Both the position numbers and the translations under genes were made by a program. A stretch of 64,000 bases of DNA, from assembly GCF_001005315.1 (NCBI RefSeq), contig NZ_LBMG01000001.1:1-64000 (forward strand), given 5' to 3'. The stretch comes from Kordia jejudonensis (GTDB taxonomy: Bacteria > Bacteroidota > Bacteroidia > Flavobacteriales > Flavobacteriaceae). This document shows, piece by piece, positions 2,509 through 50,463 of this stretch (position 1 is its first letter; every line of letters starts with the position of its first letter). The notes beneath the pieces were generated by a model. It had not been told where the DNA came from and made no database searches. It saw only the letters and a list, made by a program, of their open reading frames with translations.

Positions 2509-2678
2509 ATTTAATATTTCAACGCTTGGTCGAAATGTTTTTTAATGTTTCCTCTAAATATCTCATTAACTCCCTACGACGTAGTTCATTATTTCTTTTT
2601 TAATTCATTGTATTCTTTATGAATTGAGTTACCACATAGCTCTGATATGCGTTGCAATATTAGTTGTGAGTCGTTTCA

Positions 2679-3848
2679 TTAGTGATCGCCGTTTTCTAAC
2701 CAAGATTTATAATAGTCTTCATCCGCAATTTTCATGGCTTCTTCCGTTACTTGTAATGGTTTGAATGTATCTACCATAACTGCCAATTCTTCGGTTTCTG
2801 TTTTTCCGATGCTTCGTTCTACAGCACCAGGATGTGGTCCGTGTGGAATTCCTGCTGGATGCAACGAAATGTGTCCTGCTTCTATGTCGTTTCTACTCAT
2901 GAAATCGCCATCAACATAGTACAACACTTCATCACTGTCAATGTTACTATGATTGTACGGTGCTGGAATGCTTTGTGGATGGTAATCGTACAGTCGTGGT
3001 ACAAATGAGCAAACGACAAATGCGTCTGTTTCAAAAGTTTGATGTACTGGTGGCGGTTGATGAATTCGTCCTGTTATAGGTTCAAAATCGTGAATTGAAA
3101 ACGCGTATGGATAGTTGTAACCATCGTATCCAACTACATCAAAAGGATGCGTTGCGTAGACCATTTCAAAGATATCGCCTTGCTTTTTTACTTTGATTAA
3201 AAAATCTCCTTTTTCGTCATGAGTTTCTAATTCTTCAGGTCGTCTAAGATCGCGTTCGCAAAATGGCGAATGTTCTAAGAGTTGACCAAACCAGTTTCTA
3301 TAGCGTTTTGGTGTGTATATTGGGCGATACGATTCTACAATGAATAATCGATTGTCGTCTGTATCAAAATCTAGTTTGTATATGATTCCGCGTGGCACTA
3401 ATAAGTAATCTCCATATTTGAAATCGAGATTTCCAAGCATCGTTCGGAGTTTTCCTGTTCCTTTGTGAATAAAGATTAATTCGTCTGCATCTGTGTTTTT
3501 GTAGAAATATTCTCGTGTTGATTCTTTTGGTGCTGCTAAAATAATATTGCAATCGCTGTTGGTTAAGACTATTTTTCTACTGTCTAAATAATCTTGTTCT
3601 GGTGCTACTTGAAATCCGCGCAAGCGATATGATTGAATGTTATTGGTTTTTGCGATTTTTGGTGCAACACTGTATTGTTTGCGTATTTCTTTGACTTGTG
3701 TTGGTCGATGTTCGTGATAACTGTTTGTGGACATTCCGTCGAAACCGATCGTTCCAAAAAGCTGTTCGTAATACAAATCGCCATTTGGCTTTCTAAAAAT
3801 CGTGTGTCTTTTGGGTGGAATGTTTCCTAATTTATGATAAAAAGGCAT
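2679..3848 (-). CDS. hmgA: Homogentisate 1,2-dioxygenase
   Basis: A cupin-fold Fe(II) enzyme that cleaves the ring of homogentisate to maleylacetoacetate, the step after HPPD. The C-terminal half contains the expected iron-binding surroundings: PYNHSNIDSDEVLYYVDG (about residues 296-313) and HPAGIPHGPHPG (about 330-341). The N-terminal half is a bicupin arm. The length of 389 is close to the compact bacterial form. It is the first gene of the leftward hmgA-hppD-kynA series. About 286 bases before the next gene upstream on this strand (the end of the patatin gene) hold no recognised element. Confidence 0.94.
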   Translation of the reverse strand: MPFYHKLGNIPPKRHTIFRKPNGDLYYEQLFGTIGFDGMSTNSYHEHRPTQVKEIRKQYSVAPKIAKTNNIQSYRLRGFQVAPEQDYLDSRKIVLTNSDCNIILAAPKESTREYFYKNTDADELIFIHKGTGKLRTMLGNLDFKYGDYLLVPRGIIYKLDFDTDDNRLFIVESYRPIYTPKRYRNWFGQLLEHSPFCERDLRRPEELETHDEKGDFLIKVKKQGDIFEMVYATHPFDVVGYDGYNYPYAFSIHDFEPITGRIHQPPPVHQTFETDAFVVCSFVPRLYDYHPQSIPAPYNHSNIDSDEVLYYVDGDFMSRNDIEAGHISLHPAGIPHGPHPGAVERSIGKTETEELAVMVDTFKPLQVTEEAMKIADEDYYKSWLENGDH

Positions 3849-32167: not shown

Positions 32168-32180
32168 CCTGTTGAATTTA

Positions 32181-32632
32181 CAGCTAGCGCGCGTTTGTAA
32201 CGCGTGCCAATACAAAAACTAAAAACATTTATAAATTTCTAGCGTAAATTACAAACTCGCATTAGCGATAAGAAGATAATTCGAAATAGTTTAGCTTGTT
32301 TGACGGCACTCGTTGCAAACTTGCGCTAGCGATGCGACGGTTTGGGCATTTGAAAATAGGTTTATACCTTCTCAAACTTACGCTAGCAATGTATATTACT
32401 TCGTCACAGCTAGCGCGCGTTTGTAACGCGTGCCAATGCATAAATTAAAAACATTTATAAATTTCTAGCGTAAACTACAAACTCGTGTTAGCGATAAGAA
32501 GATAATTCGAAATAGTTTAGCTTGTTTGACGGCACAAGTTGCAAACTTGCGCTAGCGATGCGACGGTTTGGGCATTTGAAAATAGGTTTATACCTTCTCA
32601 AAATTCCGCTAGCAATGTATATTACTTCGTCA
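32181..32632. repeat. Two tandem 226-bp REP-like units
   Basis: Unit 1 is 32181-32406 and unit 2 is 32407-32632, in direct tandem and differing at only a few positions. Each begins with GCTAGCGCGCGTTTGTAACG, ending at GTGCC (32183-32208), and has an inverted imperfect match, GGCACTCG ... GCGCTAGC, at 32305-32330 (second unit 32409-32434 and 32531-32556). Related motifs lie inside (CTAGCGTAA ... TTAGCGA at 32239-32268). There is no coding potential. It resembles repetitive extragenic palindromes, possibly spread by a RAYT-type transposase encoded elsewhere. That is inference, as no transposase is in the window. Confidence 0.9.
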
Positions 32633-32700
32633 CCCTGAACTTTATTCAGGGTCTCACATATATTTTCTTACTGTTATGTGAAACTGAATCAAGTTCAGTT
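32632..32700. repeat. Two small hairpins after the tandem array
   Basis: ACCCTGAA-CTTTA-TTCAGGGT (32632-32652) and AACTGAA-TCAAG-TTCAGTT (32682-32700). They share the sense of a CCTGAA/TTCAGG element and may also stop transcription coming from the M1 gene, though no long T run follows. Confidence 0.65.
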
Positions 32701-41210: not shown

Positions 41211-42533
41211 TTAAACTAAGAATTGAAATAAATCGGGTTTGTCATTTAAATAGTCGCCATAAAAGTTACGCAATTTCATTTTTGTGATCAAGGCATCTAA
41301 ATCATCCGCATGTTTCAATTGCAATCCTACAACTGCGGCACCGTTTTCACGATTGGTTTTTTTGGTATATTCAAAATGTGTAATGTCGTCGGTTGGTCCT
41401 AAAATTTCCACTACAAATTCGCGCAAAGCACCTGCACGTTGTGGAAATTTGATAATGAAGTAATGTTTTAAATTGGCATATAATAATGCGCGTTCTTTTA
41501 TTTCGGCAGTTCGGGTAATATCATTGTTGCTTCCACTGATGACACATACTACATTTTTACCTTTAATTTCATCAGTATATTGCGATAATGCACTTATACT
41601 TAATGCTCCAGCAGGCTCAACCACAATTGCTTGCCGATTGTATAAATCTAAAATTATTTGACACACATTGCCTTCGTCAACCGTACTCATTTGGTGTAAA
41701 TTTTCTTTACAGATGGCAAAATTCAAATCGCCAACACGTTTTACAGCAGCGCCGTCCACAAAGTTTTCAATACTTTTTAACGTTGTATTTCTATCTTTTT
41801 CAATTGATGTAGACATCGAAGGTGCACCTTTTGGTTCTACACCAATTATTTTTGTGTTTGGAGATAACATTTTGAACACTGAAGACAATCCTGCAGATAA
41901 TCCGCCACCGCCAACAGGAACAAATACATAATCAATTGGAGTTTCAAGCTGATTTAGTATTTCTAAACCAATAGTTGCTTGTCCTTCAATCACTTTTTCG
42001 TCATTAAATGGGTGAATAAACGTTTTGTTCAACCGTTCTGATTGTTCCAGTGCCGCATGATACGAATCGTCAAATGTATCGCCAATCAATACCACCTCAA
42101 CGTAGTTTTCGCCAAACATTTTAACTTGTTCAATCTTCTGATTTGGCGTTGGTGTTGGCATAAATATCGTGCCTTTTATTTGTAATAATTTACACGACAA
42201 CGCTACACCTTGCGCATGATTTCCAGCACTTGCACATACAATCTCGTTTTCAACTTGTGCAGAAGTCAACGAAGCCATTTTATTATATGCACCACGTATT
42301 TTATACGAACGCACTTGTTGTAAATCTTCCCGTTTTAAATAGAGATTACAATCATATTGTTTTGAATAGTAATCGTTGTAACTCAAAGGCGTTACCGAAG
42401 CAATACCTTTGAGTGTTTTAGCAGCGTTTTGAATGGCTGCCAACGTTGGAGCGTATGTTTTTGTGGTGGTTTGCAAAGTATGTTTTATAATTATTTTTAA
42501 TTGTTCTTGATATAATTTTTCTCCAAAAACCAC
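41211..42533 (-). CDS. ilvA: Threonine ammonia-lyase (threonine deaminase)
   Basis: A PLP enzyme turning threonine into 2-oxobutyrate, the entry step of isoleucine synthesis. The PLP lysine is in [11 protein letters not shown] (about residue 78), the glycine loop is [11 protein letters not shown] (about 204-214), and the C-terminal ACT-like regulatory domain (single; from about 345, [18 protein letters not shown]) indicates feedback control. The 440-residue ORF begins with GTG and has no ATG near the start. A TTG 19 codons later (42476) precedes the well conserved [10 protein letters not shown] and is an equally likely start. It follows ilvC after a 171-base spacer holding repeats. Confidence 0.94.
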
Positions 42534-42704: not shown

Positions 42705-44207
42705 CTACACCGCAACAGGGTTTTCCGTTTTTACAGTTGTTTTAATCGTTTTCATCGCCGTCATTGCTGCTCTGAGTCGTTTTCCAACAGCTTCAATTGG
42801 GTGATTTCGAATGGCATCATTTACGGTAATTAAATCTAAATTGTCAACTGCATTTGAACTTGAAAATGGTTTTCCAATTACTTCCGTAGAAACGTCTTTC
42901 ATAAAATCTTCAAGTAACGGTTTGCACGCATGATCAAATAAGTAACAACCGTATTCTGCCGTATCTGAAATTACGCGATTCATTTCAAATAGTTTTTTAC
43001 GCGCAATCGTATTGGCAATTAATGGCAATTCGTGCAACGATTCGTAATAAGCAGAATCTTCAATAATTCCGGCACTTACCATGGTTTCAAATGCTAATTC
43101 TACGCCCGATTTTACAAAAGCGACTAATAAGGTTCCGTGATCAAAGTATTCTTGTTCCGAAATATGATCCGTTGTCAACGCCGTTTTTTCAAAAGCAGTT
43201 TCTCCTGTTGCAGCACGCCATTTGAGTAAGTTTTTATCATCATTTGCCCAATCTTCCATCATGGTTTTTGAAAAATGTCCCGAAATGATATCGTCCATAT
43301 GTTTTTCAAATAATGGTTTCATGATGGTTTTTAATTCTTCTGAAAGTTCAAAAGCTTTTAGTTTTGCAGGATTTGATAAACGATCCATCATATTGGTAAT
43401 TCCGCCATGTTTCAACGCTTCCGTAATGGTTTCCCAACCTAGTTGAATCAATTTTGCAGCATAATCAGCATCAATTCCATCAGCGACCATTTTGTCAAAA
43501 GCTAAAATTGAACCTGTTTGCAACACACCACAAAGTATAGTTTGTTCGCCCATTAAATCACTTTTTACTTCAGCTATAAACGACGATGCTAACACACCAG
43601 CTCTGTGTCCACCTGTTGCAACTGCATACGCTTTTGCTTGTGCCCAACCTTTGTTTTCTGGATCATTTTCTGGATGTACCGCAATAAGTGTTGGCACTCC
43701 AAAACCACGTTTGTATTCTTCACGCACTTCCGTTCCTGGACATTTTGGCGCAACCATAATGACCGTGATATCTTCACGAATTTGCGTGCCTTCTTCTACA
43801 ATATTGAAACCGTGCGAATAACTTAAGGTTGCTCCTTTTTTTAGTAACGGCATCACCGCTTTTACCACATTTGTATGTTGCTTGTCTGGTGTAAGATTTA
43901 AGACTAGATCTGCCGTTGGAATCAACTGTTTATAGGTTCCAACTTTGAAACCGTGTGAAGTTGCATTTTGATATGAATTGCGTTCTTCATCAATAGCTGC
44001 TTGACGTAATGCGTATGAAATATCTAAGCCTGAATCGCGCATGTTTAATCCTTGATTCAATCCTTGTGCGCCACAACCAACGATGACTATTTTTTTGTCT
44101 TTCAATGCATTGACGCCGTTTTCAAATTCGGAAGCGTCCATAAATCTACATTTTCCTAGTTGTGCGAGTTGTTCTCGTAATGATAGTGTATTGAAATAGT
44201 TTGACAT
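42705..44207 (-). CDS. ilvC: Ketol-acid reductoisomerase, class II
   Basis: Converts 2-acetolactate or 2-aceto-2-hydroxybutyrate with NADPH to the dihydroxy acids. The Rossmann motif [19 protein letters not shown] is at about residues 41-59, and it has two KARI-C knotted domains, making it the long class II enzyme (500 residues, as in enterobacteria and Bacteroidetes) rather than the 330-residue class I. The catalytic [19 protein letters not shown] segment is present (about 215-233). It follows ilvN by about 125 bases. NADPH demand here may relate to the downstream gapN. Confidence 0.97.
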
Positions 44208-44331: not shown

Positions 44332-44862
44332 TTAATGATTGATTGCTTTGAGCATATTTGAAATTTTCATTTCTTCTTTGGAAACTGCAATGCGTCCTGA
44401 ACGTGTAAATTGCATGATTCCGAAAACGCTGAGTTCTCTGTATAATAGTTCGATTTCTTCTTTGCGACCTGATTTTTCTATGACAAAAAATTGTTTGTTT
44501 ACCGTGACGATTCGCGCATTGCTGTCTTTGATGATATTTTGAATTTGGCGTTCATCAAACAATAAATCAGATTTCATTTTAAAGATGCTTGATTCTTGAT
44601 AAATGATTTCTTCTTCTGTATGATAATACGCTTTGATGACTTCAACTTGTTTTTCAATCTGACCGATGATTTTTTTCATTCGTTCTTCCGAAAGATTGAC
44701 CACAATTGTCCATTTTGAAACGTTTTCAATTTCTGAAACAGACGAATTGATACTTTCAATATTGATATGTCTTCGTTGGAATATTGCTGAAATTCTATTC
44801 AACAATCCGATATTATTTTCAGTGTATACCGAAACCGTAAATTGTTTGCTTTCTTGTTCCAT
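44332..44862 (-). CDS. ilvN: Acetolactate synthase small (regulatory) subunit
   Basis: Regulatory subunit that gives feedback inhibition by valine to IlvB. The ACT domain begins FTVSVYTENNIGLLNRISAIFQRRHINIESI (about residues 8-38). A second ALS_ss_C-like half follows (LLFDERQIQNIIKDSNARI). An ATG 8 codons upstream exists, but the chosen start (MEQESKQ) fits the family. At 176 residues it is typical. It lies about 105 bases after ilvB, so co-transcription is likely. Confidence 0.92.
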   Translation of the reverse strand: MEQESKQFTVSVYTENNIGLLNRISAIFQRRHINIESINSSVSEIENVSKWTIVVNLSEERMKKIIGQIEKQVEVIKAYYHTEEEIIYQESSIFKMKSDLLFDERQIQNIIKDSNARIVTVNKQFFVIEKSGRKEEIELLYRELSVFGIMQFTRSGRIAVSKEEMKISNMLKAINH

Positions 44863-44967
44863 ATTTTTTAAAGGATTACAGAGCATAGAAAAAAGAGAAT
44901 AGACTTATTTCAGTTAAAAAAATCATCTTTGTTCTTTATTCTATTTTCTAAGTTCTTTTCATCTTTA

Positions 44968-46701
44968 CTAACTCAATCGTATGTCTGAAACCGATGCTCC
45001 TGTTGGAATCATTGGAAATACGTTGTCTTCTTTTTCTACACAAACTTCTAGGAAATACGCCTGTTTGCTTTGCATCATTTCGGCAACTGCTTCCGCTAAT
45101 TCTTCTCGTTTGGTTACACGTCGTGCATTTAAATGATATCCTTTTGCAATGGCGACAAAATCTGGGTTTGTCATTTCGGTTGATGCGTAACGTTTGTCAA
45201 AAAATAATTGTTGCCACTGACGTACCATTCCTAAGAAATCGTTATTTAATACCACAATTTTTACGGCTGCTTTTTGCTGAAAGATGGTTCCTAATTCTTG
45301 AATCGTCATTTGATAACCACCATCGCCACACACACAAACTACTTCGCGTTCAGGTTTTGCCATTTTTGCGCCAATTGCGGCTGGCAATCCAAATCCCATT
45401 GTTCCTAAACCGCCAGAAGTAATGTTGCTTTTTGTTTGGTTAAAATTGGCGTAACGACAAGCAATCATTTGATGTTGACCAACATCTGAAACAATGGCTG
45501 CTTCGCCTTTGCTTTGGATGTTGATTTCGTTCATCACTTCGCCCATTGTCAATCCTTCTTTCGTTGGATGTAAATCGTTTTTGATGACTTTTTCATATTC
45601 AATAGCATATAAATCCTTGAATTTTTGATGCCATTCTGTATGTGATTTTTTATCAATTAAAGATAGAATTGCTTTTAAACTTGCTTTTGCATCGCCAAGA
45701 ACAGCAACATCTGTTTTTACATTTTTATCAACTTCCGCAGGATCTATTTCAAAATGAATCACTTTTGCTTGTTTGGCATATGTTGCAAGATTTCCCGTTA
45801 CACGATCGTCAAAACGCATTCCGATAGCGATTAATACATCACATTCGTTTGTGAGTACATTTGGTGCATAGTTTCCGTGCATTCCTACCATTCCGACATT
45901 TAGCGGGTGTTCGGTTGGAATTGCAGAAACTCCTAAAATGGTCCATGCAGACGGAATTCCTGCTTTTTCTATAAAGGCTTTAAATTCTTGTTCGGCTTCA
46001 CTCAAAATCACGCCTTGTCCCCAAACTACGAATGGTTTTTTTGCGTTATTTATTAATTCTGCAGCAGCGCTAAGAGCATTTTTATCCGTATCAGGAATTG
46101 CTTTGTAACTCCGAACATGTGTACATTTTTCATATGAAAAGTCAAATTCTTCAAATTGCGCATCTTTTGTAATGTCTATTAAAACTGGCCCTGGACGACC
46201 ACTTTTGGCAATGTAAAATGCTTTTGCCATGACTTCTGGAATTTCAGAAGCTTTCGTAATTTGATGGTTCCATTTGGTCACTGGCGTTGAAATTCCGACA
46301 ATATCCGTTTCTTGAAATGCATCACTTCCTAACAAATGTGAAGCGACTTGCCCTGTGATACACACCATTGGTGTAGAATCGATTTGTGCATCGGCAATTC
46401 CTGTGATTAGGTTTGTTGCGCCAGGACCTGAAGTTGCCATTGCGACACCGACTTCTCCTGAAATTCTTGCGTATCCTTGTGCCGCATGTGTTGCACCTTG
46501 TTCGTGGCGTGTGAGTACATGATGAATTTTGTCTTGATATTTGTATAATTCGTCATATACAGGCATGATTGCGCCGCCAGGATAACCGTATAATGTTTTT
46601 ACACCTTCTGCTAATAGACATCGTACGATAGCTTCGCTTCCTGAGATGCGTTCTGTTTTTTGAAGTGTTTGTTTTGTTCTTTGTATGGTGTTTGTTTCCA
46701 T
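44968..46701 (-). CDS. ilvB: Acetolactate synthase large (catalytic) subunit
   Basis: A ThDP enzyme joining two pyruvates, or pyruvate and 2-oxobutyrate. The N-terminal YGYPGGAIMPVYDEL, the active-site Glu of HEQGATHAAQGYAR (about residue 70), and the ThDP motif CGDGGYQMTIQELGT ... NNDFLGMVRQW (about 445-480) are all present. The start METNTIQRT is preferred. An in-frame ATG 10 codons upstream (46731) lies within a REP-like hairpin whose sequence gives the residues MRNDN, so it is not a credible start. The length from the chosen start is 577. Confidence 0.95.
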   Translation of the reverse strand: METNTIQRTKQTLQKTERISGSEAIVRCLLAEGVKTLYGYPGGAIMPVYDELYKYQDKIHHVLTRHEQGATHAAQGYARISGEVGVAMATSGPGATNLITGIADAQIDSTPMVCITGQVASHLLGSDAFQETDIVGISTPVTKWNHQITKASEIPEVMAKAFYIAKSGRPGPVLIDITKDAQFEEFDFSYEKCTHVRSYKAIPDTDKNALSAAAELINNAKKPFVVWGQGVILSEAEQEFKAFIEKAGIPSAWTILGVSAIPTEHPLNVGMVGMHGNYAPNVLTNECDVLIAIGMRFDDRVTGNLATYAKQAKVIHFEIDPAEVDKNVKTDVAVLGDAKASLKAILSLIDKKSHTEWHQKFKDLYAIEYEKVIKNDLHPTKEGLTMGEVMNEINIQSKGEAAIVSDVGQHQMIACRYANFNQTKSNITSGGLGTMGFGLPAAIGAKMAKPEREVVCVCGDGGYQMTIQELGTIFQQKAAVKIVVLNNDFLGMVRQWQQLFFDKRYASTEMTNPDFVAIAKGYHLNARRVTKREELAEAVAEMMQSKQAYFLEVCVEKEDNVFPMIPTGASVSDIRLS

Positions 46702-46719
46702 AGTGTTTGTTTTTTTATT

Positions 46720-46892
46720 GTCATTCCGCACTTGATGCGGAATCCATTTTGAAACTTTAGAGCTTCCTATTTATATCTCGACTGCGCTTGATGTTACAAA
46801 CGTGGTTCTTTGAGATTCCTCTGATGAGATTCCTGCCTACGCAGGAATGACAAATCGTTTTTTATGAGATTCCCACTTTCGTGGGAATGATG
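46720..46892. repeat. Mosaic of dispersed hairpin repeats between ilvD and ilvB
   Basis: Three perfect 8-bp hairpins: ATTCCGCA-CTTGA-TGCGGAAT (46723-46743), ATTCCTGC-CTAC-GCAGGAAT (46829-46848), and ATTCCCAC-TTTC-GTGGGAAT (46869-46888). A copy of the TCTCGACTGCGCT element with a TTGATG tail (46776-46798) sits among them. The outer bases (ATTCC/GGAAT) are fixed while the inner stem differs with matched changes. They lie inside the ilv operon. Confidence 0.88.
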
Positions 46893-46900
46893 AATTCTAA

Positions 46901-48580
46901 TTAGAATTCATCAGTTACGCAACCTTTGGATGCCGATGAAACTGTTTTTGCATATTTGTATAGTACACCGCGTTCAAATTTGAGTTCTGGTGCTTTCCAT
47001 TGTTTTCTTCGTTCTTGAAGTACTGAATCAGAGACTTCAAGTTGTATTGAGTTCGTTTCTGCGTCAATTGTAATTATGTCTCCATCTTTTACTAATGCGA
47101 GTGTTCCACCTTCTTGTGCTTCGGGTGTAATGTGTCCGACCACAAAACCATGTGTTCCTCCTGAAAAGCGTCCGTCTGTAATGAGTGCGACATCTTCTCC
47201 TAAACCTGCGCCCATAATTGCCGCTGTTGGTTTTAGCATTTCTGGCATTCCTGGTCCACCTTTTGGTCCTTCGTAGCGAATGACAACGACATCGCCTTTT
47301 TCTACTTTTCCATCACGGATTCCGTCATTTGCTTCGTATTCTCCTTCAAAAACTTTGGCTTTTCCAGAGAATTTTAATCCTTCTTTTCCTGTTATTTTTG
47401 CCACACTTCCATCACTTGCTAAGTTTCCGTACAACATGCGTAAATGACCAGATATTTTGATTGGATTTTCAATGGGTTTGATCACATCTTGACCTTCCGT
47501 TAAATCATCAACATCTAATAAGTTTTCAGCAATCGTTTTTCCTGTAACCGTCATACAATCGCCGTGTAGTAATCCTTTTTTAAGGAGATATTTTAATACG
47601 GCAGGAATTCCACCAACCGCATGAACATCTTCCATTAAGTATTTTCCACTAGGTTTTAAGTCTGCTAGAAAAGGCGTTGTATCACTTATTTCTTGAAAGT
47701 CTTTGAGTGTGAAATCAATTTGTGCAGCTCTCGCAATTGCTAAGAAATGCAATACTGCATTGGTTGATCCTCCAAGAATTGTGACCAATCGAACTGCATT
47801 TTCAAGTGATTTTCGCGTGATGATATCCGATGGTTTGATATCTTTTTCTAGGAGTACTCGCATCGCTTCTCCCGCTGCAACAGATTCTTGTTTTTTGGCA
47901 TCGCTCAACGCTGGATTTGACGAATTGAAAGGCAAGGTCATTCCTAACGCTTCTATTGCAGAAGCCATAGTATTTGCGGTGTACATTCCGCCGCAAGCGC
48001 CAGCACCAGGACATGCTTTTTCAACAATGTTTTGATATTCTGTTTCGTCCATAGTTCCAGCCACTTTGCTTCCCCAAGCTTCAAACGCAGAAACAACATC
48101 CAATTTTTTTCCATTGTGACAGCCAGAATCGATTGTTCCGCCATAAACTAAAATACTTGGACGATTTAGACGAATCATTGCCATTAATGCACCAGGCATA
48201 TTTTTGTCACAACCAACAACTGTGATTAATCCGTCGTAACTCATGGCTTGCACAACCGTTTCCATGGAATCGGCAATGATGTCTCGCGAAGGCAACGAAT
48301 AACGCATTCCTGGTGTTCCCATGGAGATTCCGTCACTTACACCAATCGTATTAAAGATGAGTCCGACAATATCTTCATTTTTAGTTCCTTGTTTTGCCAG
48401 TTTTGCCAAATCGTTTAAGTGCATGTTACACGGATTTCCTTCGTAACCTGTACTTGCAATTCCGATAATGGGTTTGAAAAAGTCTTCTTTCGTCAAACCA
48501 ATTGCATGCAACATAGCTTGCGCCGCTGGTTGCGTAGGATCTTGCGTGACTGTTTTACTGTATTTGTTCAAGTTGTTCAT
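46901..48580 (-). CDS. ilvD: Dihydroxy-acid dehydratase
   Basis: An Fe-S enzyme converting 2,3-dihydroxy-3-methylbutanoate (and -pentanoate) to the oxo acid in valine and isoleucine synthesis. Cluster cysteines are visible in [14 protein letters not shown] (about residue 52), [14 protein letters not shown] (about 124) and [18 protein letters not shown] (about 190-207). The 559 residues are full length. Its start overlaps the ilvE stop (four bases), so the two are translationally coupled. Confidence 0.97.
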
Positions 48581-49470
48581 CCTGCTTTTGATAGTTTTTT
48601 AGCGCGTTCGCAAAGCACTTCTTGTTTGTATAGTTTCATAAGTTGGTAACCCAGAGACGATTCCCACGAAAGTGGAAATGTATATTCGTCTAAAGACGCC
48701 AATCCAACTACTTCTGCGGCAGTTCCTGTGAAAAATGCGCTATCTGCTTGTTTTAATTCGTTTAGTGTGAATTGTTTTTCTTCTACTGATAAACCTACTT
48801 CTTTGCAAATTTCAATGATGGTGGAACGTGTAATTCCTGCCATGATGTGTCCGCGTTTTGGCGTGTAGAGTTTTCCATCTTTTTCCATGAATATATTGGC
48901 ACCTGAACATTCGGCTACGTTTCCGTTCATATCTAAGAGTAAGGCTTCATCGTATCCCGCATTTTTAGCTTCGTTTGTTGATAGAATTGAGTTTGTATAG
49001 TGTCCTGTAATTTTTGCTTCTACAAAACACGATTTTGGATTTGGACGCTCAAAGCGAGACGTTTTTACTTTGAGAAGTTTGTCGCCCATGTATTTTCCCC
49101 ATTCCCAACATTGGATGGTAAGTGTTGATTCGTCCGAAGTTAGAAGACTCATGTTTGCTCCGGTTGTCAGTATTGGACGAATGTATGCGTCTTGCAGCTT
49201 ATTTTTTTCTAGTAATTTATAGGTAATGTCAACTAATTCTTCAATTGTGTGATTGAACGGAATTCCCATAACTTCAGCGCCATATTTTAGGCGTTCGTAA
49301 TGTTCGGTTGCTTTGAAGATTTTTGCACCAAATTTAGTTTTGTACGCTCTGATTCCTTCAAAAACACCATTTCCGTAGTGTAATGCCTGACTGTATAGGT
49401 TTCCAGAGGCCTTTTCTGGATGCATAAATGTACCGTTGTGGTAGATGATACTGTCTTTTGTATAATACAT
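48577..49470 (-). CDS. ilvE: Branched-chain amino acid aminotransferase
   Basis: A fold type IV PLP transaminase catalysing the last step to Ile, Val and Leu. Marks are the N-terminal [12 protein letters not shown] (about residues 33-44), the PLP-lysine region [12 protein letters not shown] (about 151-162, Lys in [10 protein letters not shown]), and the glycine/threonine-rich phosphate loop [22 protein letters not shown]. The 297 residues are typical. It is the first gene of the leftward ilv operon; the long leader with attenuators lies upstream. The start Met is right for the family ([13 protein letters not shown]). Confidence 0.94.
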
Positions 49471-49841
49471 GTTTATTGTTATTATGATTCGAATTTAATT
49501 TTATTGTCCTTTTTTGTGTGTTCTGTTTTGATATTCTCCCTAAAACCAATTGTTAATTTATTTGTTTATTAAACTGATTTTTAACTATTTACATTTTATC
49601 AAATACAATGTTCAACTTGCTTTTTTTACTGTGTTTTTTGTTATTTGTTCGTTATTTTTCATCTTTTCGATTGATTTTTGGTTTTTTATGGGATTCCGCT
49701 CTTCAGTGGGAATAATTTAACTTATAGTTTTTTCTCCAACCTTAAATATTCTCAAAACGAGATCCCGTTCTTCAACGGGATTAGTTCAACTTGCAACTTT
49801 GAGTGCGCCTTTTGGGCTTCTCAAAATTGAGTTTCACTAAA
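49471..49841. other. ilvE 5' region between attenuator 2 and the start codon
   Basis: There is no ORF. It holds two REP-like hairpins, an imperfect one at 49693-49713 (ATTCCGCT ... GTGGGAAT) and a perfect one at 49762-49781 (ATCCCGTT-CTTC-AACGGGAT), plus a T-rich stretch (about 49620-49690). No full promoter match was found here, so read-through from upstream is expected. Confidence 0.6.
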
Positions 49842-49871
49842 AAAGCCTGTATCGCAATTGATACAGGCTTT
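49842..49871 (-). terminator. Attenuator terminator 2 of the ilv operon
   Basis: On the minus strand, AAAGCCTGTATC-AATTGC-GATACAGGCTTT is a 12-bp stem followed by a run of T residues (six in all, three of them in the stem). It follows leader peptide 2 (stop at 49900-49902) by 28 bases. The 5' arm and loop (49856-49864) can instead pair with bases at the leader stop codon (GAGTTGATAC, 49892-49901), giving a mutually exclusive antiterminator. Confidence 0.85.
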
Positions 49872-49899
49872 CTATTTTTATACAGCAAATCGTATCAAC

Positions 49900-49953
49900 T
49901 CAGGTGGAGTTTATAATGATAATGACGATAATGCTGATTATGGTTTTGTTCAT
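49900..49953 (-). CDS. Ile/Val-rich ilv leader peptide 2
   Basis: The ORF encodes MNKTIISIIVIIIINST and then stops (TGA): 17 residues with 8 Ile and 1 Val, too short for standard gene callers. Codons 5-14 are almost all Ile or Val (mostly ATT and ATC, with two ATA). The upstream sequence is A-rich, as usual for translation starts in this phylum. It precedes terminator 2 and then the ilv operon. Stalling of the ribosome on the Ile run when charged tRNA-Ile is scarce would leave the post-stop segment free to block the terminator. The peptide itself need have no function. The sequence is read directly; the mechanism is inferred from classical attenuation. Confidence 0.85.
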   Translation of the reverse strand: MNKTIISIIVIIIINST

Positions 49954-49970
49954 TTTTTTGTTTATTTTTC

Positions 49971-50044
49971 GTTGTTTGTTGTTTGTTGTTTGTTGTTTGT
50001 TGTTTGTTGTTTGTTGTTTGTTGTTTGTTGTTTGTTGTTTGTTG
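49971..50044. repeat. Heptamer microsatellite (GTTGTTT)x10.5 in the ilv leader
   Basis: Seventy-four bases of perfect GTTGTTT repeats (AAACAAC on the transcribed RNA) lie between terminator 1 and leader peptide 2. Only 17 bases separate the tract from leader 2. The tract is expected to change length by slippage. A short version of the same unit lies upstream of uvrC. Confidence 0.95.
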
Positions 50045-50048
50045 AAAT

Positions 50049-50079
50049 AAAAAAAGCTTTCCGTTTATAGGAAAGCTTT
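50049..50079 (-). terminator. Attenuator terminator 1 of the ilv operon
   Basis: On the minus strand, AAAGCTTTCC-TATAAAC-GGAAAGCTTT is a perfect 10-bp stem followed by more T residues. It lies 32 bases after the stop of leader peptide 1. The alternative pairing seen here is weaker (AGGAA near the leader stop with TTCCT of the stem). It could instead end the HNH transcript, but that gene stops about 385 bases earlier. Confidence 0.75.
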
Positions 50080-50111
50080 ACAATTTATAGTTAAATTTTT
50101 ATACACATTCC

Positions 50112-50174
50112 TTATCGTTGTGAGCGAATCACAATGACATTAATAGAAATGATATTTATAATTTGTTTGTTCAT
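50112..50174 (-). CDS. Ile/Val-rich ilv leader peptide 1
   Basis: The ORF encodes MNKQIINIISINVIVIRSQR and then stops (TAA): 20 residues with 7 Ile and 2 Val. It begins in a context (GGTATAACAA before ATGAACAAACAA) nearly repeated at 50330. A -7-like box AATATTTG (minus strand, 50184-50191; 7 of 8 to the consensus) ends nine bases before the ATG. It is followed by terminator 1. Its 3' half overlaps a repeat-like hairpin (TTGTGAGCGAATCACAA), so chance enrichment is a little more possible than for leader 2. Confidence 0.65.
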   Translation of the reverse strand: MNKQIINIISINVIVIRSQR

Positions 50175-50270
50175 TTGTTATACCAAATATTGTAAAAGTT
50201 TTTTTAGATTCCTAATGTATTGTTGAAAAATGTTGTTGGTTTTTTCTGTGTTTGCAGGGAATTTAGTTGA

Positions 50271-50330
50271 TTAACTCAACCACGGATAAGAGTCAATGTA
50301 GATATTGCCTAGTATCTTTCGTTTGTTCAT
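50271..50330 (-). CDS. Third MNK-type small ORF upstream of the ilv leaders
   Basis: The ORF encodes MNKRKILGNIYIDSYPWLS and then stops: 19 residues. Its start region (GGTAATAACAAATGAACAAACGAA) closely matches that of leader 1, suggesting duplication. It has only 3 Ile and 1 Leu clustered early, and the sequence after the stop shows only a weak GTTGA/TCAAC hairpin without a T run. It may be a decayed leader unit or a leader with altered sensing. Kept as low confidence. Confidence 0.35.
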   Translation of the reverse strand: MNKRKILGNIYIDSYPWLS

Positions 50331-50463
50331 TTGTTATTACCATTTTCGAATTTATTAATAATTAACGCATACTTCGTTTAGCAAAAAATTACAAACCTGA
50401 GGAAGATTATATATAATCGCTTATCATTACAAATACCACTAAATGTTGTTTTGTTAGCGTTTT

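Follow-up and report, generated by a model that had tools for sequence, protein, structure and literature searches.

The window analysed here, 64,000 nt from contig NZ_LBMG01000001.1 of Kordia jejudonensis, carries a complete set of ilv genes, and upstream of them are two short open reading frames (ORFs) rich in isoleucine and valine, each followed by an intrinsic terminator. Textbook attenuation normally uses one attenuator per operon. Why, then, does one ilv operon have two? We consider it quite probable that these are two complete ribosome-mediated attenuators that act one after the other, each responding to charged tRNA-Ile and tRNA-Val, and that together they control one ilv transcript.

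Two leader-terminator units upstream of the ilv genes

Six ilv genes were identified on the minus strand in the order ilvE-D-B-N-C-A: ilvE (branched-chain amino acid transaminase, 48577..49470), ilvD (dihydroxy-acid dehydratase, 46901..48580), ilvB (acetolactate synthase large subunit, 44968..46731), ilvN (acetolactate synthase small subunit, 44332..44886), ilvC (ketol-acid reductoisomerase, 42705..44207) and ilvA (threonine ammonia-lyase, 41211..42533). All six passed the NCBIfam cut-offs, and the initial annotation was right to place ilvE and then the complete ilv set behind the units. Both units sit between ilvE and a minus-strand gene at 51183-50464 which has no NCBIfam match.

The leader 1 ORF (50112..50174, minus strand) encodes MNKQIINIISINVIVIRSQR followed by a stop codon, and the leader 2 ORF (49900..49953, minus strand) encodes MNKTIISIIVIIIINST followed by a stop codon; both were read from the sequence and are conserved in the genus. 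Leader 2 has eight Ile and one Val among 17 residues, which agrees with the nine of 17 counted previously. The terminator hairpins (regions 3:4) were detected by pattern scan, folding and covariation on the same strand, at 50053..50079 in unit 1 with a T run to about 50046, and at 49842..49871 in unit 2, also followed by a T run. The positions first given for the two ORFs and terminators are correct by sequence and terminator scan, and the observation of two Ile/Val-rich ORFs, each with a terminator, upstream of the ilv genes is confirmed.

The first description did not mention a further element of both units, an alternative strand for pairing that lies around the stop codon. In unit 1, hairpin 1:2 occupies the last part of the leader 1 ORF (50113..50139, minus strand; folding and covariation), and region 2, GATAAGGAA (50108..50116, minus strand), covers the stop codon and is predicted by folding to serve as antiterminator strand. 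In unit 2, hairpin 1:2 spans the stop codon by pairing AACTC with GAGTT (49893..49915, minus strand; covariation), and folding predicts region 2, GTTGATAC (49892..49899, minus strand), as antiterminator strand. Region 2 lies at the stop codon; the 5' arm of the terminator is region 3. Both leader-terminator stretches fold better than 200 of 200 shuffles (z -4.2 and -4.7). A TTTG (50184..50187, minus strand) precedes the start codon of leader 1 by 9 nt; it is conserved in the alignment of 11 loci, and we take it for the core of the -7 element in a Bacteroidetes-type promoter.

The combination of such an ORF with a terminator is rare in the window. Its two strands contain 396 ORFs of 15-25 aa that start with ATG; 12 of these have a terminator no more than 120 nt away, and leaders 1 and 2 alone (2/396) combine a terminator with at least 45% Ile+Val. 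Their Ile+Val fractions of 0.56 and 0.47 are the highest and, with rounding, a tie for second place.

The spacer between the units (49954..50044, minus strand) consists of 13 copies of a 7-bp repeat and is not conserved; shorter runs of this repeat occur at the same place in some relatives. A hairpin at 49781-49762 was considered as a third terminator and rejected, being part of a dispersed repeat with 22 genome matches. This REP-like element (window 49759-49790, minus strand; matches with at most 3 mismatches) is in some places arrayed at 81-84 nt spacing, and similar elements occur between the two units in several relatives. The ORF at 50275-50331 (minus strand, MNKRKILGNIYIDSYPWLS) was set aside as a further leader; it is not Ile/Val-rich, has no T-run terminator, and no counterpart was seen in the same-genus upstream regions compared. 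It shares the start context ACAAATGAACAAAC with leader 1 and is possibly a fragment of a further unit copy. Elsewhere, at 32180-32633, the window has a 226-bp unit that occurs twice in tandem with a 95% match.

Conservation within the genus

The initial annotation had proposed conservation in relatives as a check on its reading. Both ORFs and both terminators are kept in 10 of the 10 other same-genus genomes searched. Nine of these ten have an orthologous ilvE (86-93% identity), with both leaders and terminators upstream in all nine; the tenth (G004) is without a close ilvE and has both units upstream of its ilvD. A genome of another genus (L011, G023) also has both units, and in L012 (G019) neither is present.

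What is conserved across the genus is the leaders, the stems and the stretch 5' of leader 1. The DNA between the units differs, with heptamer repeats in the window and REP-like elements or other DNA elsewhere. Ile or Val at codons 8, 9 and 13-16 of leader 1 is kept in 11 of 11 same-genus sequences. Variability at the three codon positions of leader 1 (7, 7, 10) is weakly protein-like, and such a bias is too weak to be taken as proof of leader translation.

Covariation of the stems

Stem alignments were drawn from 38 (unit 1) and 30 (unit 2) loci chosen for having matches. In unit 1, both partners vary at 17 of the 29 pairs among 37 relatives (36 distinct), and the covariation score was reached by 0/500 shuffles; helices 4 and 5 correspond to hairpin 1:2 and helix 6 to the terminator. 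In unit 2, 8 of 21 pairs change on both sides among 30 relatives; the score was reached by 0/500 shuffles and the number of pair types by 9/500, with helix 1 corresponding to hairpin 1:2 and helix 2 to the terminator. Stem cells are paired in 91 and 94% of cases against 29-55% in slid controls, figures that come from alignments fitted to the tested structures, which favours those structures.

The alignments were not fitted to the antiterminator, and its cells are paired in 81% of cases in unit 1 (slid controls 40-76%) and 90% in unit 2 (19-53%). Covariation of the antiterminator is small, shuffles reaching its score in 13/500 (unit 1) and 78/500 (unit 2). At the level of sequence comparison, then, the anatomy of the units, the conservation of both and the covariation of the 1:2 and 3:4 stems are established.

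Predicted dependence on ribosome position

Folding of the nascent RNA was computed for 22 units in 11 loci, 10 of them same-genus and one from another genus, with the RNA ending where the terminator's 3' arm begins and a ribosome footprint set on every codon in turn. With the A site on the last Ile/Val codon, 6.2-14.7 base pairs between regions 2 and 3 are expected across the 22 units, and with the ribosome at the stop codon only 0.01-3.8. Loss of the antiterminator within a few codons after the last Ile/Val codon is predicted in 22/22 units. Without a ribosome the expected number ranges from 0.05 to 15.6, so the free RNA is not uniformly terminating. In unit 1 the antiterminator is at its weakest in the genome of the window, with 7.7 pairs expected in the stalled state, and in a few others.

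In a wider set, at least 5 pairs when stalled and at most half that number at the stop codon were predicted for 18/23 first, 18/23 second and 50/73 single units, and just 12/23, 15/23 and 40/73, respectively, did better than 19 or more of 20 region 2 shuffles. The calculation, and only the calculation, thus gives a switch governed by ribosome position. Together with the leader/terminator anatomy and the covarying stems, this predicted switch supports the classical attenuator reading made at first sight.

Occurrence in other genomes

The ilvD search covered 249 genomes of the family and gave matches in 195, with 150 places among the matches listed. From these, a family set of 119 loci was formed of 100 of the first 102 listed places plus 20 chosen from the other 48, minus L188. 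The window, G023 and L188 (21 bases) were left out, the short L187 and L231 were included, and one same-genus locus (L149) is inside the set. A second set held 80 loci with named organisms; it shares species with the first, so the two are not independent, and the MAG labels Ignavibacteriae, Thalassovita and Planktophila may be wrong. The strict detector looked for an ORF with at least 35% Ile+Val and a strong terminator 12-46 nt behind it, and two strict units within 450 nt were called a close pair.

At least one strict unit was found in 52 of the 119 family loci on the sense strand against one on the antisense strand, and in 42 of the 80 named loci against one. Close pairs occurred in 21 of 199 loci in sense (15/119 and 6/80) and in none in antisense. 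The strict scan gave no unit at all in 67/119 and 38/80 loci, and the tandem arrangement is a minority state among ilvD loci. With relaxed criteria, one or more units appeared in 54/80 and 69/119 loci in sense, and also in 15/80 and 27/119 in antisense; because of these antisense matches we relied on the strict scan, which does miss units (L073 has two in the relaxed scan and one in the strict). Two units in series for one operon had been thought unusual in a flavobacterium. The series is present, and the tandem in 21 of 199 other loci means that it is not peculiar to this organism.

Named tandem cases include Tenacibaculum caenipelagi, an uncultured Aquimarina, an uncultured Lutibacter, Chryseobacterium lathyri, a Cyclobacteriaceae MAG and a contig labelled Ignavibacteriae. 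The window and G126 bring the tandem loci to 23. In G126 (L271, G126:C40:12500-18500, about 2654-3045) there are three consecutive units upstream of ilvE. Its last two leaders, MTTYTNSIIISIIIRSTE and MPTYTNSIIISIIIRSIE, are near-identical and the DNA behind them is almost the same, so these two units look like a recent tandem duplication.

Model searches in 90 of the 119 loci showed that some genomes match a unit 1-like or a unit 2-like element alone. The unit 2 covariance model matched 51 of the 249 family genomes at E <=1e-3, and the best 30 loci of this search all adjoin ilvE or ilvD. Two of its matches in the window's own genome, C152 and C174, were rejected as leaders; they are plain terminators without leader ORFs, and therefore matches near E 1e-4 to 1e-3 are not all leaders. 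At L213, unit 1-like (1056-1199) and unit 2-like (1880-2001) matches lie upstream of ilvD about 700 nt apart, wider than elsewhere. An ilvD tree built from the window and the 80 named rows shows no clustering of the two-unit state (7 changes for 7 rows, a count as low in 500/500 shuffles). ilvD is not a species marker, and the strict detector misses units.

Serial action, the signal sensed and alternative readings

A TTTG lies 4-25 nt before the first leader in 18/23 tandem loci and before the second in 5/23 (Fisher p 3e-4), and the distance from hairpin 1 to start codon 2 is at most 20 nt in 16/23. The bias of TTTG to first leaders and the tight spacing in relatives point to one promoter and two successive decisions; serial action of both units on a single RNA is therefore probable.

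Pooled first and second leaders are alike in Ile (0.34 vs 0.38), Val (0.12 vs 0.12) and Leu (0.05 vs 0.05), and one shared signal for both units, the supply of charged tRNA-Ile and tRNA-Val, is favoured. In the same genome, hisG (L274) has a single leader MTFTQLHHHHFHTCHQAS with four consecutive His codons (HHHH) and then a terminator, and a trpE-like gene (L275) has a single leader MNTNLVNTWWWNLRTSTIVS with three consecutive Trp codons (WWW) and then a terminator. No such leader was found upstream of a leuA-like gene and a second trpE-like gene. The single his and trp leaders suggest that leader-peptide attenuation is probably in use in this organism. Among the ilv, hisG, trpE-like and leuA-like places examined, the leader is doubled at ilv only.

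Instead, each unit might have a signal of its own, with one responding mainly to Val, or to the overall speed of translation, and the other to Ile, forming a logic gate like that of Salmonella mgtCBR. We regard this as unlikely, but of the alternatives it survives best. First and second leaders are distinct types, each also found solitary in other genomes, and types which occur alone may differ in sensitivity or specificity. The similar pooled Ile/Val/Leu content speaks against it, comparing composition and not response, and so do the two G126 units that are near-identical copies.

It is likewise unlikely, and slightly less to be expected, that one unit works and the other is a relic, or that each has its own promoter, so that there is no serial action. 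Many genomes do have one unit only, a TTTG stands close before five of the 23 second leaders, and the spacer in the window is long. Against this reading stand the presence of leader and stems in both units of 11/11 same-genus genomes, with the predicted switch in the 10 computed, the short distance between the units in most tandem loci, and the bias of TTTG to the first leader.

A riboswitch or T-box with incidental ORFs would also present as a conserved structured leader with terminators upstream of an amino-acid operon, and we hold it to be very improbable. The window has 0 Rfam matches at the gathering threshold, both ORFs stay rich in Ile/Val from one locus to the next, and the folding predicts a switch that follows codon position. 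Eight sub-threshold Rfam matches over the leader region include no riboswitch or T-box; the best over the units are amino-acid leaders, Thr_leader (34.5 bits) and Phe_leader (29.3 bits), with a cut-off of 55, which favours the attenuator reading. Chance ORFs next to ordinary terminators are scarcely credible: terminator-like sites alone show no excess in a simple scan (9 in 11 kb vs 8.4 expected), but the ORF-terminator combination is rare in the window, both units are conserved in the same-genus genomes, the stems covary and close pairs are confined to the sense strand.

Proposed mechanism

For two serial attenuators sensing Ile and Val supply, we infer leader translation, its coupling to transcription, termination, a single promoter and a multiplicative output. 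The ilv transcript would start just 5' of leader 1, and in each unit a ribosome would trail RNA polymerase. When Ile or Val is scarce, the ribosome would stall on an Ile/Val codon and open hairpin 1:2; the freed region 2 would pair with region 3, the terminator would be blocked and polymerase would continue. When both amino acids are plentiful, the ribosome would reach the stop codon and mask region 2, and the 3:4 terminator would form. Because polymerase must clear both terminators, read-through would be about p1 x p2, with a lower leak in plenty and a steeper response.

More broadly, we lean to the view that same-signal ilv attenuators with two stages, and in at least one case three, arose repeatedly in Bacteroidota, partly by unit duplication, and give a near-digital multiplicative response to Ile and Val supply. 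A conserved and once, it seems, freshly duplicated series of attenuators suggests a route to a sharper switch without a protein regulator, and the natural one-, two- and three-unit operons are test material for such sharpening. The results also lend comparative support to the idea that ilv, his and trp are controlled through ribosome sensing in Bacteroidota, a mode of control of which we found only brief mentions in print (open-licence PMC).

Comparison with known systems

The classical leader-peptide attenuators are those of the enterobacterial trp, his and ilvGMEDA operons. With these and with Corynebacterium ilvBNC the window shares a short ORF rich in the regulated amino acids, alternative hairpins (1:2, 3:4 and, by prediction, 2:3), and a terminator before the operon. 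It differs in having two complete serial units (three in G126), in the lack of Leu richness and in belonging to a different phylum.

In the same phylum, transcript maps led to the suggestion of leader-peptide attenuation upstream of amino-acid biosynthesis operons in Flavobacterium psychrophilum (PMC9723704) and revealed leader-like ORFs in Bacteroides thetaiotaomicron (PMC7366714); the sections cited here mention neither ilv nor tandem units. A survey of premature terminators describes a second tandem terminator in some rimP leaders (PMC2965389), and tandem amino-acid leaders were not found in the sections searched of PMC1262725 and PMC8632094. Searches of open-licence PMC full text gave no report of same-signal tandem amino-acid attenuators, which does not settle priority. 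What the compared loci support, and what would be new, is a probable same-signal serial leader-peptide attenuator, kept across the sampled genus and recurring in other genera.

The tandem attenuators of Salmonella mgtCBR sense different signals, ATP and proline, and their authors call them a singular example and contrast them with leaders that have two intrinsic terminators (PMC3641672). As far as that account goes, the likeness is two short ORFs before one operon, with one RNA suggested in the window by TTTG bias and spacing. Unlike mgtCBR, the units of the window are alike in composition, each has its own terminator, and they lie upstream of an amino-acid operon.

Tandem homologous riboswitches, for which a steeper, 'digital' and pseudo-cooperative response has been argued (PMC9481103), resemble the arrangement proposed here, in the features described there, as two serial terminator switches for the same signal. 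The proposed sensor in the window is a translating ribosome and not an aptamer, and no Rfam family was found at threshold. By analogy, the steeper response expected from multiplying two read-through probabilities would parallel the argument made for those riboswitches, and homotypic serial attenuation, if true, would be their ribosome-mediated counterpart.
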